Source: Acidobacteriota bacterium (lineage in GTDB: Bacteria > Acidobacteriota > UBA6911). Taken from it: a stretch of DNA of 64,000 nucleotides. A program made the position numbers and the translations under genes. Shown piece after piece: positions 45,922 to 52,778 of this stretch (the stretch's first letter is position 1; the number at the start of each line of letters is the position of its first letter). Under the pieces are notes generated by a model. That model searched no databases and was not told the DNA's origin. It saw only the letters and a program-made list of their open reading frames with translations. Location: assembly GCA_012729555.1 (NCBI GenBank), contig JAAYCX010000040.1, positions 1-64,000 on the forward strand. The letters are read 5' to 3'.

Positions 45922-48873
45922 ATGATCGATAACCGGCCGATCCAGTTCGACCCCTTCACCCTCGATCCCGCCAACGAGCTGCTCTGGAAGGGGGAGGAAA
46001 AGGTGCGGTTGCGGCCGAAGACCTTCGCCCTGCTCCGCCACCTGGCGCTGCGGCCGGGGGCGCTGGTTACGAAGACCGACCTGCTCAACGCCGTCTGGGG
46101 GGAGTGCAACGTCGGGGACGAGGCGCTCAAGCACTGCGTGGCCGAGATCCGCCGCGCCCTGGACGACAGCGCCGAGGCCCCCCGCTTCGTCGAGACGGTG
46201 CACCGGCGGGGGTACCGTTTCATCGGCCGGACCGCCAGGGTCGGGAGTCTGCGCAAGATCGGGGCGGGCGGACGCGACCGGGCGCCCGCCGTCCCGGCGG
46301 CGGAAGCCGCCCCGGCGGCCGCGGCCGAAACCAGGAGGGCGGAGGACGCTTTCGTGGGGCGGGGGGCCGAGCTTGCCACGCTCCACCGCGCGCTGGCCGA
46401 GGCCACGGCGGGCAGGCGGCAGGTGGTCTTCGTCGGCGGGGCCCGGGGGATGGGGAAAACGAGCCTCGTCGACGCTTTCGTCGACAGCGTCCGCCCCGCC
46501 GTCGCGGGCAGACAGCGCGCCCTCCGGCCGGTGGTGGCGCGGGGCCAGTGCCTCCGCTCCCTCGGCGCCGGGGAGGCCTACATGCCGGTGCTCGAGGCGG
46601 TCACCGCCCTGGGCGCCTCAGGCCACAGGCGCGCGGTCCTGCCCGTCCTGCGCCGCCACGCGCCGCTCTGGCTCGCCCAGATGCCTGCGCTCATCCCCGC
46701 GGCCGATCTCGCAAGGGTGCGGCGGGCGACGATCGACGCCTCGCGCCAGCGGATGCTGCGCGAAATGGCCGAGGCGCTGGAGGCGCTGACGGCCGACCGG
46801 TCGCTCATCCTGGTGCTGGAGGACCTGCACTGGAGCGACAGCGCCACGCTCGACCTCGTCTCCTACTGGGCCCAGCGCCGCGGCCCGGCCCGGCTCCTGC
46901 TCGTGGGCACCTACCGTACGGGCGAGGCCGCCGACGGCCATCCCCTCGGGGAGATCCTCCACGAGCTGCAGGCGCACCGGCAGTGCGTGAGCATCGGTCT
47001 CGGCCCCCTGGGGGAGGCGGATATGGCCGATTACCTGGCGCGCCGCTTCCCCGGGCACCGCTTCCCCGAAGAAACGGCCCCCTGCCTGGCCCGGCGCACC
47101 GGCGGCCATCCCCTGTTCCTGGTCAAGGTGCTGGAGGGGATGTGCGAGCGCGGCCTCGCCCGGCAGCAGGACGGCCATTGGAGACTCGGTGTTCCGCTCG
47201 AGGAGGCGGCGCGTCTCGTCCCCCCGACCGCCGGTCAGGTCATCGAGCGATGGCTCGACCGCTGCACGATGGAGGAGCGGGGGTTGCTCGGGGCCGCGAG
47301 CGTCGAGGGGGAGGCGTTCTCGGCCTCCGCCGTGGCGGCCATGCTGCGCAAGAAGCCGGGGAGGATCGAATCCCGGCTCCGGGACCTCGCCGCGCGGGGG
47401 GATTTCCTGTCGGCTCCCGCGCCGGACGGCACGGGCGGAAACGGCCGCTTCCGGTTCACGAACACCCTCCGGCGCGACGTCTGCTACCGGCTCCTGCCCG
47501 GCGAGACGCGCGCGCTGTATCACCTGAGGGCGGCCCGACACCTCGAACGCTCCCGCCCGGACGGTGACGGGAACCCGGCCGCGCCGCTGGCGCGCCATTA
47601 CGACCGCGCGGGGGAACCGGGGCGCGCCCTCCCATTTTACGCCGAGGCGGCCGAAAGCGCCCTCGCCCGTCTGGCCGGGCGCGAGGCCCTCGAGGCGGCC
47701 GGGCGCGGCCTCGAGCTGCTGGCGGCCGTCGCCGCCCCCCGCCGCGCCGAGCACGAGGCGCGCCTCCGTAACGCCCTGGGGGAAGGGCTGTGGATCACCC
47801 GCGGCGCCGGGGAGGAGGAGGTGCGCCGCTCCTTCGAGCGGGCGCGCGAAATCCATTCCGGGTGGCGCCCGGACCGGGGGGCGCGGCAGGGGGAGCTCCT
47901 CTCCCGCTCGCTCTACGGCCTCTGGTGGTATCACCGGGTGCGGGCCGAACCGGGACAGGCGCACGAGCTGGCGGGACGCCTGATGGGTCTCGCCGGAGCC
48001 GGGGGAAACGCCTCCCTCCTCGACCGCGCCCGCCACGCGCTCGGGTCGAGCCTCTTCGATCAAGGCGAATTCACCGCGGCCCTCTCGCACCTGGAGCGGA
48101 GCCGGAGCCCGCTCAGCCGCTCCCTGCTTGCCCTCCTGCAGTGGCACCTGGGCTTCCCCGAAAGGGCGCTCGAGGCGGTCGCCGGGGTTCTCTCCCGGGC
48201 GCGCACGGAGCCGCAGGCGGGGATCGGCATCTTCGCCGGTCTCTGCAAGGCGTGGATTCACAAGGAGCGCCGGGAGCCGCAGGCGGCCCTCGACTGCGCC
48301 GAGGAGTCTCTCAGGCTCGGGCGCGGGCGGCGCCTGGCGGAATCGTGGCTGGCACCGATGGAAAGCATCCGGGGATGGGCGCTGGCCCGGCTGGGGCAGG
48401 TCCACCACGGCCTGGAACAGTCACGCCGGGCGTTCGGCGAGGCCGCGGCCGCCGGCGCCCTCGGCCTCGCCCCGCTGCTGCTCGCCGTTTTCGCCGAAAC
48501 CTGCCTGGAGGCGGGCAAGGCGGGAGAGGGGCTCGAGGCGGTCGACCGCGCCCTGGAAATCGCGCGCCGGACCGGGACGCATCACCAGGACGCGGAACTG
48601 TACCGGATCAGGGGGGAGCTGCTGGCGCGGCGCATCGTCAGGGAGGGGGGGGACCGGGACCCGGCCGCCTGCTTCGAACGGGCGATCCGCACGGCCCATG
48701 ACCAGGGCGCCCTCTCGATCCAGCTGCGGGCGGCGACGAGCCTCGCCGTTTATATGAGGGAACGGGACGGGGAGGCCGGGGCGCGCGCCCGGCTCGAACG
48801 TCTCTACGGAAGGTTCGATGAAGGCTTCGGCACCGGCGACCTCGTGAAGGCCCGGGCGCTATTGGGATCCTAG
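45922..48873 (+). CDS. Winged-helix (OmpR/CadC-type) regulator with ATPase and TPR-like domains
   Basis: The 983-residue protein has an OmpR-type DNA-binding domain at residues 5-105 (FDPFTLDPANELLW to HRRGYRFIG), a linker, then a large AAA-type ATPase with FVGRGAELATLHRAL, Walker A GGARGMGKTSLV and Walker B SLILVLEDLHWSD, and a helical C-terminal half of alpha-solenoid repeats (AAESALARLAGREALEAAGRGL). The layout resembles STAND/MalT-like signal proteins but with an N-terminal winged helix. There is no receiver domain, so the input is probably a ligand bound by the solenoid. It likely regulates itself and perhaps the divergent phosphatase. It shares a CTAG stop with flgM. Confidence 0.82.
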   Translation: MIDNRPIQFDPFTLDPANELLWKGEEKVRLRPKTFALLRHLALRPGALVTKTDLLNAVWGECNVGDEALKHCVAEIRRALDDSAEAPRFVETVHRRGYRFIGRTARVGSLRKIGAGGRDRAPAVPAAEAAPAAAAETRRAEDAFVGRGAELATLHRALAEATAGRRQVVFVGGARGMGKTSLVDAFVDSVRPAVAGRQRALRPVVARGQCLRSLGAGEAYMPVLEAVTALGASGHRRAVLPVLRRHAPLWLAQMPALIPAADLARVRRATIDASRQRMLREMAEALEALTADRSLILVLEDLHWSDSATLDLVSYWAQRRGPARLLLVGTYRTGEAADGHPLGEILHELQAHRQCVSIGLGPLGEADMADYLARRFPGHRFPEETAPCLARRTGGHPLFLVKVLEGMCERGLARQQDGHWRLGVPLEEAARLVPPTAGQVIERWLDRCTMEERGLLGAASVEGEAFSASAVAAMLRKKPGRIESRLRDLAARGDFLSAPAPDGTGGNGRFRFTNTLRRDVCYRLLPGETRALYHLRAARHLERSRPDGDGNPAAPLARHYDRAGEPGRALPFYAEAAESALARLAGREALEAAGRGLELLAAVAAPRRAEHEARLRNALGEGLWITRGAGEEEVRRSFERAREIHSGWRPDRGARQGELLSRSLYGLWWYHRVRAEPGQAHELAGRLMGLAGAGGNASLLDRARHALGSSLFDQGEFTAALSHLERSRSPLSRSLLALLQWHLGFPERALEAVAGVLSRARTEPQAGIGIFAGLCKAWIHKERREPQAALDCAEESLRLGRGRRLAESWLAPMESIRGWALARLGQVHHGLEQSRRAFGEAAAAGALGLAPLLLAVFAETCLEAGKAGEGLEAVDRALEIARRTGTHHQDAELYRIRGELLARRIVREGGDRDPAACFERAIRTAHDQGALSIQLRAATSLAVYMRERDGEAGARARLERLYGRFDEGFGTGDLVKARALLGS

Positions 48874-49112
48874 CCGGATTCTTCCGGGGTGTGGTCGGCG
48901 ATGATCTTTTCCGCGATTGTATCCGAGTCGACGTGGTAGCCGCCGCTCCGGATCTGCTCGCGCAGTTCCGCGACCCGGTCTTCCCGGATGTCGGGGACCG
49001 AGCGGGCGAGTCCTTCCAGCCTCGCCAGGTCGGGGCTGCGGGCGGTGGTGCCCGCCCGCTTCATCCTCCGGGCGTCCGGGCCGGCCCGGGGTTCCGTGCG
49101 CTCGATCTCCAT
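48870..49112 (-). CDS. flgM: Anti-sigma-28 factor FlgM
   Basis: The 80-residue protein matches the short FlgM pattern: a disordered N-terminus, then VPDIREDRVAELREQIRSGGYHVDSDTIAEKIIADH, whose C-terminal helices bind and block sigma-28. fliA lies 32 nt upstream on the same strand. FlgM is normally exported through the flagellar hook-basal body, so its presence implies a flagellum encoded elsewhere. It ends in a CTAG shared with the regulator. Confidence 0.85.
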   Translation of the reverse strand: MEIERTEPRAGPDARRMKRAGTTARSPDLARLEGLARSVPDIREDRVAELREQIRSGGYHVDSDTIAEKIIADHTPEESG

Positions 49113-49144: not shown

Positions 49145-49906
49145 CTATTCGTTGACCCGGCGGAGCTTGGTGCGCAGCCGCAGCATCGCCTTGGTGTGCA
49201 GCTGCGACACCCGCGACTCGTTCACCCCCAGCACCTTCCCGATCTCCTTCATGGTCAGTTCGTCGAAATAGTAGAGGGATACCACCAGCCGTTCCTTCTT
49301 GGGCAGGGTGTCGATGGTGGTGGCGAGGATCTCCTGGATCTCCGATTTGTGGCAGACGAAGAAGGGGTCCATCTGGGGGGCGTCAGGCACGTACTTGACC
49401 AGGGGGTCGCTGTTCCTGTCGTCGTCCTGCCCGGCGAGTTCGTGGAAGCTGCCGAGGTTCAGCCCCTTGATCTGGTCCACCAGCTCGTAGAACTCATCGA
49501 GCGTGATCTCCATCTCGTCGCAGATTTCCTTTTCGGTCGCCGGCCGGCCGAGCCGCTGCTCCAGTTCGCGGTGGACCCGCTCGAGGTCCTTGCTCTTCTT
49601 GCGCAGTGAGCGCGGCGCCCAGTCCAGGTTCCGGAGGCTGTCCAGGATCGCCCCCTTGATGCGCAGTTCGGCGTAGGTCTTGAACTTGACCCCGCGGCTG
49701 CGGTCGAATTTCTCGATGGCGTCGAGCAGCCCGAGGATCCCGGCGCTCACCAGGTCGTTCAGTTCGACGTGGGAGGGGAGCTTGGTCGATATCCGCTGGG
49801 CGATGTACTTGATCTGGGGGAGGTGTTCGAGGATCAGGGCGTCGCGCTCGGCGCCGGTCTGATCGATCGATTCGAAGCTCTTTGTCTGCTGTGCCGCGTT
49901 CTGCAT
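49145..49906 (-). CDS. fliA: Flagellar sigma factor sigma-28 (FliA/WhiG family)
   Basis: The 253-residue sigma factor has region 2 (LNDLVSAGILGLLDAIEKFD, FKTYAELRIKGAILDSLR), region 3 (DWAPRSLRKKSKDLERVH) and region 4 (LVVSLYYFDELTMKEIGKVLGVNESRVSQLH), the order and length of FliA. It directs RNA polymerase to late flagellar and chemotaxis promoters. Gene order flhG-fliA-flgM is plausible for a flagellar control island. Confidence 0.95.
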   Translation of the reverse strand: MQNAAQQTKSFESIDQTGAERDALILEHLPQIKYIAQRISTKLPSHVELNDLVSAGILGLLDAIEKFDRSRGVKFKTYAELRIKGAILDSLRNLDWAPRSLRKKSKDLERVHRELEQRLGRPATEKEICDEMEITLDEFYELVDQIKGLNLGSFHELAGQDDDRNSDPLVKYVPDAPQMDPFFVCHKSEIQEILATTIDTLPKKERLVVSLYYFDELTMKEIGKVLGVNESRVSQLHTKAMLRLRTKLRRVNE

Positions 49907-49969: not shown

Positions 49970-50851
49970 TCAGTTGACCCAGTCGTTGAGCAGTGTTTCC
50001 CAAAGCAAAAGTTCGGATGAACGGATCTCCCCCTCCCGCTGCGTCAGCCGGTGCGCCAGGAGACGGAAGCAGCGGCCGGCGGGGGAGTCGGGGAACCGGT
50101 GCGCCACCGGGACCTGGGCGCGCACCGCCTCGGGCACGCGGGGGTCGCGCTCGATATGCCCGAGGTATTCGATTCCGCGGTCGAGAAAGCGCCGGACCAC
50201 CGAGTCGATCTGGCCGAATACCTCCCGGGCATCGGAGGCGGATTCCGCGCAGTTGACGACGACCTGGATATTCTTGTCCGGAGCCTCCGCCAGGACGATC
50301 TTGATGACGGCGTAGGCGTCGACGATGGCCGCGGGTTCCGGGGTGCTGACGACGATGACCTCGCCCGCCAGGAGCAGGAACTGGATCACGTTGCGCGAAA
50401 TCCCCGCCGCGGTGTCGATGATGACGTAATCGGTGTCCGCGTCGATCCGGGCGAATTCCCCGGCCAGCCGGCTCCTCTGGGCGCGCGTCAGTTCCGCCAT
50501 GCGCTGCAGCCCGCTCCCCGAGGGAATGATCCGGACCCCCGCCGGTCCCTGGACGCAGATGTCGCCCATGGTCCGGTCGCCGCAGAGCACGTGGCCCAGG
50601 TGGTACCGCGGCGCGATGCCGAAGAGGATGTCCAGGTTTGCCAGTCCGAAGTCGCCGTCCAGGGCGATGACCTTGCGGTCCAGTTCCGCCAGGCTCACCG
50701 ATAGGTTGGCGACGATATTGGTCTTCCCGACCCCCCCCTTCCCGCTGGTCACCGCGATCACGCGGGGCGTCCGCCCCCCGGGCGCCGCCAGGCCCCGTAC
50801 CGCAGCCGTCCGGCCGCAATTGTGCGGGCTCAACCGATCGGGGGGTGTCAT
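49970..50851 (-). CDS. flhG: MinD/ParA-family ATPase FlhG (YlxH-like)
   Basis: The 293-residue ATPase has the deviant Walker A SGKGGVGKTNIVANL, switch I/II regions DGDFGLANLD and IIDTAAGISRN, and the FlhG/YlxH-type flow VVSTPEPAAIVDAYAVIK and NCAESASDAREVF. FlhG limits flagellar number and place, normally with FlhF. Neither flhF nor flhA is upstream; 598 nt of non-coding DNA are instead. The ATG at 50851 is chosen because GAGGAG lies 6 nt upstream. Confidence 0.9.
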   Translation of the reverse strand: MTPPDRLSPHNCGRTAAVRGLAAPGGRTPRVIAVTSGKGGVGKTNIVANLSVSLAELDRKVIALDGDFGLANLDILFGIAPRYHLGHVLCGDRTMGDICVQGPAGVRIIPSGSGLQRMAELTRAQRSRLAGEFARIDADTDYVIIDTAAGISRNVIQFLLLAGEVIVVSTPEPAAIVDAYAVIKIVLAEAPDKNIQVVVNCAESASDAREVFGQIDSVVRRFLDRGIEYLGHIERDPRVPEAVRAQVPVAHRFPDSPAGRCFRLLAHRLTQREGEIRSSELLLWETLLNDWVN

Positions 50852-50906
50852 GAACAGCTCCTCAAGCGGGGTGACGGGAACACCGAAAAGCGCGGCGGCT
50901 GCAGGA

Positions 50907-50928
50907 GGCCGGCCGAAACCGGCCGGCC
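50907..50928. other. Perfect hairpin in the flhG leader
   Basis: A 9-bp stem (GGCCGGCCG with CGGCCGGCC, loop AAAC) lies about 55 nt before the flhG ATG. It could act as an RNA structure in the leader or as a protein site; no T-tract follows on the minus strand. Confidence 0.5.
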
Positions 50929-51137
50929 GGAAAATCCGTGATTCAGGCATGCGGGGAGGCTTGCGGTGGCGGCAGGCATGGGCTGCGCCGCGGCCCGCGT
51001 TGTTCCCGGCACCCCGGATTGGCTCACCAAGTGGAGTTTGACGAGGCCTTTGAAGCAACGGTAACGCATTGTTTTTTTTGCAGCGCGCATCGGCTTTTCG
51101 GATCTCCCGTGCATTTCCTGAATCACGCCCGTCTTCG

Positions 51138-51155
51138 TTGCAATTCGCATTCCAA
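51138..51155 (-). promoter_or_regulatory. Sigma-54-like promoter element reading toward flhG
   Basis: On the minus strand TTGGAATG, a 4-nt spacer and TTGCAA reproduce the -24 GG and -12 GC of sigma-54 promoters with the required 10 nt between them. The -24 box differs from consensus at two positions. It lies about 290 nt from the flhG start, so a long leader would result. Confidence 0.35.
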
Positions 51156-51449
51156 TTCGAACGCAAACGGGGATTTTCGAGGCCCGGACACCTTGCGGCG
51201 CCGCCGGGGCGGGAGCGCAACCGGTTCCGGGCCGCTTGAACACTGGACTGAATCGCATCTGCGCCCCGGAAAGATTTTGCGGCTGACGGCACCGCACCCC
51301 GGGGCGGGGAGCCGCCTCGCGAGGCCGGAAGACCCCGTTGCGCGCGGAAATGTCCATTTTCCGCGCGGGAATCAGCACTTTGGGTGTCATTATTTTGACG
51401 ATTTTGCCGAAAAGCTGATATCATGGCCCCGGTTCAGAACGGGAGAGCC

Positions 51450-52778
51450 ATGAAACCCGGAGACGTCCGGATCCTGGTCGTCGATGACGAGGGTCCCATG
51501 CGCCAGCTGGTTCGCAGCGCCCTGGGAGACGCGGGGCATGCGGTGGATGAGGCCGCCGACGGCCGGACGGCCCTGGCCATGCTCCGCCGATCCCCCTATG
51601 ACGCGATCGTCACCGGCCTCCGTCGCCCCGGAGCGGGGGGAGAAACCCTTTTCGATGAGGCACTTCGGCTCTTCCCCGGGACCGCCGTCCTCCTCCTGAC
51701 CGACCCCGCGGACATCCCCTCGGCCGTGGACGCCGTCCGCCGGGGGGCGTGCGACTTCCTCCCCAAGCCGTTCCAGCCCGCCGAGCTGGTCCTGCGGGTG
51801 GAACGGGGGCTCGAAGAAACACGGTTGAAGCAGGAAAACCTCCGGATGCGGGGTGAACTGGAAGAAAGGCAACGGTTTTCCGGCCTGGTGGGCGGGAGCG
51901 CCCCGATGCAGGATGTCTGCAACCTGGTCCGCCTGGTCGCCCGGAAAACCGGTACCGTCCTCGTCGAGGGGGAGCCGGGGACCGGCAAGGAACTGGTCGC
52001 GCGTGCCATCCACTCCAACAGCCCACGGAAGGACCAGCCGCTGGTCCCGATCCGCTGCGGCGCCACCCCCCCCCAATTGCTCGGAGAGGAGCTCTTCGGC
52101 CGGCTTTCGGAGGCCCGGCACGGGACCCTCTTCCTGGACGAGGTCTCCAGAGTGCCGATCGACCTGCAGCTCGAGCTGCTCCGCGCGCTCGGGGAGCGGG
52201 AGTTCGAGCTGATCATCGCCACCTCCAGCACCGACCTCGCCTCCGCCGTTCAGCAGGGGGGATTCCGAAGCGATCTCTACGACCGGCTGGGCGTGATCCC
52301 CATCCGCGTCCCCCCGCTGAGGAGGCGCAGGGAAGACATCCCGCTGCTCGCCGCCCATTTCGTCCGGAAGTTCTGCGCCGACCGGTCCCTGCCTCCCAAA
52401 CAGGTGTCCCATGACGCGTTGCGCCTCCTCGTGGCCCACGACTGGCCCGGAAACGTGCGCCAGCTCGAAAATGCCGTGGAAACAGCGGTTTCCCTCTCCG
52501 CGGAGCGCCCGCTGCTCGACCCGGGGGATTTTCCCGCCGTCGCCCGGCGGACGGGTCCCGACCCGGACCGGGGTGAGATCGAGATCCCCGAGGACGGCGT
52601 CCACTTCAACGCCGTGATATCGGACCTGGAGAAGCGCCTCATCCTCCGGAGCCTCGAGGCGACCCGGGGGAACAAGAAGAGGGCGGCCTCGCTCCTGCAC
52701 CTGAAACGGACCACCTTCGTCGAAAAGCTGCGCAAGCTCGGGACGGGGACCGGTCCCTCCCCCGAAGGCGGGGACTGA
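51450..52778 (+). CDS. Degenerate NtrC-family regulator (no phospho-Asp, no GAFTGA)
   Basis: The 442-residue protein has receiver, AAA+ and Fis-type HTH domains in the NtrC order. The receiver keeps D12/D13, T84 and K106, but the phosphoacceptor position in DAIVTGLRRPG is Gly 56. The AAA+ domain keeps Walker A (GEPGTGKE) and Walker B (GTLFLDE) but the stretch between ELFG (214-217) and GTLFLDE (225-231) is only 7 residues, so the GAFTGA loop that contacts sigma-54 is deleted. The C-terminal HTH (GNKKRAASLLHLKRTTFVEKL) is intact. It is probably a sigma-54-independent or repressor-type DNA-binding protein. The ATG at 51450 has GGGAG just upstream; 51423 is the alternative. Confidence 0.85.
   Translation: MKPGDVRILVVDDEGPMRQLVRSALGDAGHAVDEAADGRTALAMLRRSPYDAIVTGLRRPGAGGETLFDEALRLFPGTAVLLLTDPADIPSAVDAVRRGACDFLPKPFQPAELVLRVERGLEETRLKQENLRMRGELEERQRFSGLVGGSAPMQDVCNLVRLVARKTGTVLVEGEPGTGKELVARAIHSNSPRKDQPLVPIRCGATPPQLLGEELFGRLSEARHGTLFLDEVSRVPIDLQLELLRALGEREFELIIATSSTDLASAVQQGGFRSDLYDRLGVIPIRVPPLRRRREDIPLLAAHFVRKFCADRSLPPKQVSHDALRLLVAHDWPGNVRQLENAVETAVSLSAERPLLDPGDFPAVARRTGPDPDRGEIEIPEDGVHFNAVISDLEKRLILRSLEATRGNKKRAASLLHLKRTTFVEKLRKLGTGTGPSPEGGD

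Follow-up and report, generated by a model that had tools for sequence, protein, structure and literature searches.

The EBP1 locus and its gene neighbourhood

The analysed window is a 64,000 nt stretch of an Acidobacteriota genome (GenBank assembly GCA_012729555.1, contig JAAYCX010000040.1, positions 1 to 64,000), and the comparison set comprised 15 genomes of the family (G000-G014, with G000 being the genome of the window). On the forward strand, at 51450-52778, the window encodes a FleQ/FlrA-like regulator of the NtrC family with 442 aa, identified by Pfam domains, alignment and the match of its HTH. We refer to this gene and its orthologs as EBP1. Beyond a divergent intergenic region of 598 nt (50852-51449), whose length a first-pass annotation of the letters had given correctly, the reverse strand carries flhG (49970-50851), encoding a FleN/MinD-like ATPase with intact Walker A, as well as fliA (sigma-28, 49145-49906) and flgM (anti-sigma-28, 48870-49112). 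FlgM was found next to fliA in G000 and G004, and none was called beside fliA in G006. It persists here without the flagellar export gate, which is its normal removal route. Adjoining flgM, at 45922-48873, is a gene for a fast evolving 983-aa protein (dN/dS 0.50 vs G004) with an OmpR-type DNA-binding domain and AAA_16.

In flagellated members of the family, for example G009 and G012, EBP1 has argH nearby and is oriented divergently from a histidine kinase gene, EBP2, flgB and fliF, continuing to flhA, flhF, flhG and fliA. There the EBP1 orthologs appear to be placed to activate flagellar genes with sigma-54. EBP2 is a FleR-like second enhancer-binding protein which bears GAFTGA and has a recognition helix unlike that of EBP1. 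In G000, G004 and G006, flhG and fliA directly face EBP1, and the cluster from the histidine kinase and EBP2 over the flg genes to flhF, which in flagellates lies between EBP1 and flhG, is therefore gone in these three genomes.

Flagellin and FliF were not found in exactly four of the 15 genomes (G000, G004, G006 and G011), and FlhA was not found in these four and in G002, which is 76% complete. The sigma-54 gene rpoN was present in 15/15. The three genomes without this cluster thus encoded no FlhA, flagellin or FliF but retained rpoN, and activation of flagellar genes with sigma-54, as is characteristic for FleQ and FlrA, does not apply to EBP1 of G000. The N-terminus of FlhG was uninformative as a marker for a lost FlhF, as flagellates showed no clear motif either. 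A literature search on flagella of this acidobacterial group found nothing.

Domain architecture and lesions of EBP1

Pfam analysis of EBP1 showed a receiver, Sigma54_activat, an AAA lid and HTH_8, which is the architecture of the NtrC family. The first-pass annotation had reported that both the phosphoacceptor and the sigma-54 contact loop are missing, and the alignments bear this out. Residue 56 is Gly (IVTGLRRP); of the 12 orthologs aligned, 11 carry Asp there and G002 carries Asn, so that EBP1 lacks the phosphoacceptor Asp of phospho-activated response regulators and is not activated by phosphorylation at this position. Between ELFG and GTLFLDE there are exactly 7 residues (RLSEARH), and 15 residues including GAFTGA (the L1 loop) are gone in comparison to the orthologs. 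A second in-frame deletion, overlooked in the first-pass annotation, took 12 residues out of the pre-sensor-I hairpin (EREFE----LIIATS), the loop that acts with L1 against sigma-54 in known members (PspF/NtrC1). Furthermore, the switch Asn (VNCGA) is changed to Arg and the sensor-I Asn to Ser. Walker A (GEPGTGKE), Walker B (LFLDEV), the two arginines in FRxDLYxRL and WPGNVRQLEN were kept. Among the features of active sigma-54 enhancer-binding proteins EBP1 therefore has Walker A and Walker B and is without GAFTGA, hairpin, switch Asn and sensor-I Asn; with L1 and hairpin deleted it is not a usual protein of this kind, as the first-pass annotation had concluded.

An AlphaFold2 model of EBP1 had a mean pLDDT of 84.8, and its AAA+ core superposed on that of FlrC over 219 residues at 1.5 Å. 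The retention of this core in the model suggests that both deletions are compatible with a folded domain. NtrC1 (Z 32.3) and NtrX (Z 31.8) were the best full-length structural matches; their rmsd values were large owing to a different arrangement of the domains.

The same 15-aa L1 deletion was present in EBP1 of G004 (a Zodletone spring MAG, 77% identical) and G006 (MAG AS06rmzACSIP, 69%). With three genomes carrying the deletion, a sequencing or assembly artefact, which would have undone the original observation, was rejected. All remaining full-length orthologs of the family have the loop, with GAFTGA or, in G001, G003 and G008, GAFTNA. We also used the HTH to fetch 80 loci from a set covering 84,980 species; the relatives obtained were Acidobacteriota, and among ORFs long enough to show the loop region only the G004 and G006 records were loop-less. 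In the EBP1 tree the three loop-less genes clustered together beside G005 and G002, both with GAFTGA. GAFTNA as a stepping stone to loop loss is not supported by this placement, which is not with the GAFTNA genomes.

Among the three loop-less genes about four indel events were counted, all in frame, and the ORFs were intact with no stops. Other lesions differed between them. EBP1 of G004 has a complete hairpin, LLLEEV at Walker B and Leu for Arg in FRxDLYYRL; that of G006 has a hairpin shortened by four residues and LLLDKV at Walker B. Both kept the receiver Asp and lost the conserved Thr, making the change from Asp to Gly specific to G000. The earlier statement that the Walker motifs and the Fis-type HTH remain is hence accurate for the window protein, and for Walker B it does not extend to the two relatives. 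Neither does the description of EBP1 as an ATPase hold well, given that the protein has lost the switch Asn, sensor I and the two remodelling loops and that the relatives have a mutated Walker B or Arg-finger. Since Walker A alone was kept throughout all three proteins, nucleotide binding is plausible and hydrolysis-driven work doubtful. Judging from these residues, ATPase-driven activation by EBP1 is unlikely.

The flagellum loss, which was invisible to the first-pass annotation, is the context that explains the loss of the loop. G011 (L081:12850-16005) lost the flagellum independently and kept GAFTGA, and loop loss is thus no automatic consequence of flagellum loss. In G011 a sigma-54-like site precedes a 109-aa ORF and fliA, with a match that does not exceed the shuffled control. 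G002 (L082:2552-3988) has flagellin, FliF and an intact GAFTGA, yet Asn as phosphoacceptor (IITNRNLP), showing that Asp loss alone is not coupled to loop loss. Relatives with an EBP1-type HTH, mostly from Holophagaceae, have GAFTDA in place of GAFTGA (L123, L124, L127, L128, L132-L143), and several of them align to the EBP1 query only from the AAA+ domain onward. Together with GAFTNA in G001, G003 and G008, this represents a recurrent change at the same Gly in flagellar-type regulators.

Predicted DNA recognition and candidate target promoters

Among solved structures the HTH of EBP1 alone was most similar to FleQ (8p53, E 2e-5), with RTTxVEKxRK in common, and the comparison with FleQ made in the first-pass annotation was apt in this respect. 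The recognition helix was absent from the other enhancer-binding proteins read from G000, where the closest EBP1 paralog shares 47% identity with it and differs in its HTH. Upstream of EBP1, at 51386-51399, is a FleQ-type box, GTCATTATTTTGAC, which is identical in G004 and G006. Eight of 13 genomes have an exact GTCA-N6-TGAC box within 700 nt upstream of EBP1, with about 0.01 expected per region by our own estimate from base composition. Genome-wide, the AT-rich exact box occurred at two sites in G000 and at none in the reversed control, and a one-mismatch search gave no extra site in G000. Judged by sequence, EBP1 has a FleQ-type HTH and its candidate target promoters have a FleQ-type box. 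For P. aeruginosa the consensus cited for FleQ reads GTCaNTAAAtTGAC; the paper that cites it also reports that it cannot be relied on in P. fluorescens (PMC6120874).

The context of the box differed between genomes. In G003, G007, G009, G012 and G014 it has no -10 element after it and is separated by 116-136 bp from a downstream sigma-54 promoter that faces the kinase operon. In G000, G004 and G006 GTCATTATTTTGAC overlaps the -35 element of a sigma-70-type promoter of EBP1 itself, TTGAC(G/A)-N18-TA(T/A)CAT, which in the window reads TTGACG-N18-TATCAT (51395-51424, forward strand). Recognition helix and box are unchanged across the three genomes and the -35 and -10 elements nearly so. Just upstream of this promoter we found a second dyad, CGCGCGGAAA-N7-TTTCCGCGCG (51341-51367), a perfect 10-bp inverted repeat whose exact core occurs once in the G000 genome.

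The other exact box in G000 precedes the gene of a small PEP-CTERM protein (L213 / G000:C92:191-807) which G000, G004 and G006 possess and for which the searched flagellates gave no full-length match. Here a consensus sigma-54 promoter, TGGCACGTAGATTGCA, follows the box at a distance of about 130 bp; its counterparts are TGGCACGGGGATTGCA in G004 and TGGAACGCAGATTGCA in G006, where the box reads GTTAATTTGTTGAC. Further upstream, next to the box, is a TGTAAA-N5-TTTACA dyad. For PEP-CTERM genes of Proteobacteria under PrsR control, the pattern that has been proposed is a TTTACA motif with a sigma-54 site after it (PMC1569441).

Strict sigma-54 patterns found no promoter before flhG. That it had simply been deleted was rejected, as a weight matrix found the sigma-54-like site TGGAATGCGAATTGCA (51139-51154, reverse strand) facing flhG, which is also present in G004 and G006. 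Its GG/GC core is intact, TGGC is changed to TGGA, and its score was above the shuffled control. The PEP-CTERM promoter of G006 also has TGGA, and TGGAATGCGAATTGCA may therefore be live. If so, a different enhancer-binding protein would have to serve flhG-fliA.

An identical FliA-type promoter-like site, TAAACAATCCCCCTGTTTTGCCGATA, was observed in G000 and G004 (L204:1501-1526 and L199:1501-1526) directly before a 113-aa ORF that was assigned by eye as PilZ-like. From its position this ORF is a possible remaining target of FliA; genome-wide, FliA-type promoters showed no excess over the reversed control.

Selection on EBP1 and its predicted function

We propose that EBP1 is a relic FleQ-type regulator which turned into a DNA-binding protein that works independently of sigma-54, probably as an autorepressor, a reading that these sequence features make fairly probable. 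In flagellates, full EBP1 with an intact AAA+ domain and GAFTGA or GAFTNA would probably bind GTCA-N6-TGAC about 120 bp upstream of the sigma-54 promoter and switch on the divergent operon of histidine kinase, EBP2 and flagellar genes. The cluster between EBP1 and flhG would have been lost, L1 then deleted, and the residues for ATP coupling would have decayed, presumably in this order. The HTH remained, with the box now on the -35 of the sigma-70 promoter of EBP1. EBP1 would bind this box by its Fis-type HTH, independent of phosphorylation and ATP-driven remodelling, and by occluding its own -35 would repress itself. At the PEP-CTERM sigma-54 promoter it may compete with an active enhancer-binding protein, and FlhG, encoded next door, may still bind to it in the way that FleN binds FleQ. 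The conserved Walker A counts against this reading, as a pure DNA-binding protein would not need it, and so do possible sigma-54 control of flhG-fliA through another enhancer-binding protein, the GAFTGA kept in flagellum-less G011 and the dispute over the FleQ consensus in other pseudomonads.

The strongest rival is slow pseudogenisation, in which EBP1 would have been functionless since the flagellum was lost and would now be decaying. We consider this unlikely, though the rates give it some weight. Within the loop-less clade dN/dS of EBP1 was 0.46-0.55 for the receiver and 0.43-0.57 for the AAA+ domain, compared to 0.06 for the whole gene in the flagellate pair G012/G014. Values in the same clade were 0.006-0.21 for fliA, argH, speA, frr and pyrH and 0.25-0.32 for flhG; dS is only rough owing to high GC. 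Catalytic residues were hit differently in each loop-less genome, and neighbouring flgM had a dN/dS of about 1.1 (G000 vs G004). Against decay, the ORF stayed intact in three genomes that are 69-77% identical, with every indel in frame, and whole-gene dN/dS in the clade was 0.40-0.47 with bootstrap confidence intervals below 1. The unchanged recognition helix and box and the nearly unchanged -35 and -10 likewise speak against decay. The HTH had the lowest dN/dS of the domains (0.09-0.26), and between G000 and G004 it differed at 2/52 amino acids vs 91/363 in the rest (Fisher p = 0.00026). This HTH-specific constraint is clear for G000/G004 only, being not significant for G000/G006 (p = 0.33) and G004/G006 (p = 0.09).

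The first-pass annotation had suggested control by a ligand or a partner. For a ligand we found no evidence; with regard to c-di-GMP, R144 of FleQ (named in PMC10723142) aligns with Ser in EBP1. A partner-controlled EBP1 would be a nucleotide-bound, non-remodelling protein that acts with FlhG at sigma-70 promoters, as FleQ-FleN does at biofilm genes; such complexes are known (PMC10723142), flhG was kept adjacent with its Walker A, and all three EBP1 proteins kept theirs. The Ser at R144 and the losses of Walker B and Arg-finger in the relatives, which speak against an ATP cycle, make this quite improbable. Very improbable is that EBP1 still works at sigma-54 promoters, as DNA-tethering subunit in mixed rings with a GAFTGA-bearing protein or as blocking competitor, because in spite of the box and dyad before TGGCACGTAGATTGCA and the site kept before flhG, even the closest paralog in the genome reaches just 47% identity and carries another HTH.

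Returning to the relic repressor, we tentatively suggest as one possible wider outcome that an enhancer box became an operator after flagellum loss. Activation at a distance with sigma-54 would have given way to promoter occlusion, ATP coupling would have been lost, and EBP1 together with FliA, FlhG and FlgM would have been rewired to PEP-CTERM and PilZ genes. The family represents a natural experiment with controls, as within one genus-level group intact orthologs would drive the flagellar operon and three flagellum-less relatives lost exactly the parts for sigma-54 contact and not the DNA reader. It could reveal how an activator driven by ATP turns into a simple DNA-binding regulator, and which role FliA, FlhG and FlgM have without a flagellum and without an export gate for FlgM.

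Comparison with known systems

EBP1 resembles FleQ of Pseudomonas and FlrA of Vibrio in the Fis-type HTH with RTTxVEKxRK, the GTCA-N6-TGAC box and the nearby flhG (fleN), and its flagellate relatives further share the divergent operon of a kinase and a second enhancer-binding protein, as in fleSR. Unlike FleQ and FlrA it is devoid of GAFTGA and of the pre-sensor-I hairpin, its switch and sensor residues are degenerate, R144 is not conserved, and its genome encodes no flagellum. VpsR of Vibrio cholerae, which binds c-di-GMP and activates biofilm genes, is similar in having the enhancer-binding-protein fold without GAFTGA and matched the EBP1 model structurally, but is not known to have a flagellar ancestry. 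NtrX of Brucella and related Alphaproteobacteria has the same order of receiver, AAA+ and HTH, and its GAFTGA region aligns as a shortened one; it differs in keeping the pre-sensor-I region and in gene context. NtrC of Rhodobacter capsulatus and Caulobacter shares the L1 deletion including GAFTGA, whereas it keeps the phospho-Asp and needs it for activation, has NtrB as partner and serves nitrogen control. These NtrC proteins and VpsR act without GAFTGA at sigma-70 promoters (PMC10274813). The missing loop itself is therefore already known in the family, and the surprise is where the protein descends from and that its change goes with the loss of the flagellum. We do not class EBP1 as an active sigma-54 activator; it is of the known GAFTGA-less kind, reached from a FleQ-type flagellar ancestor, and is filed by descent with the FleQ-type regulators.
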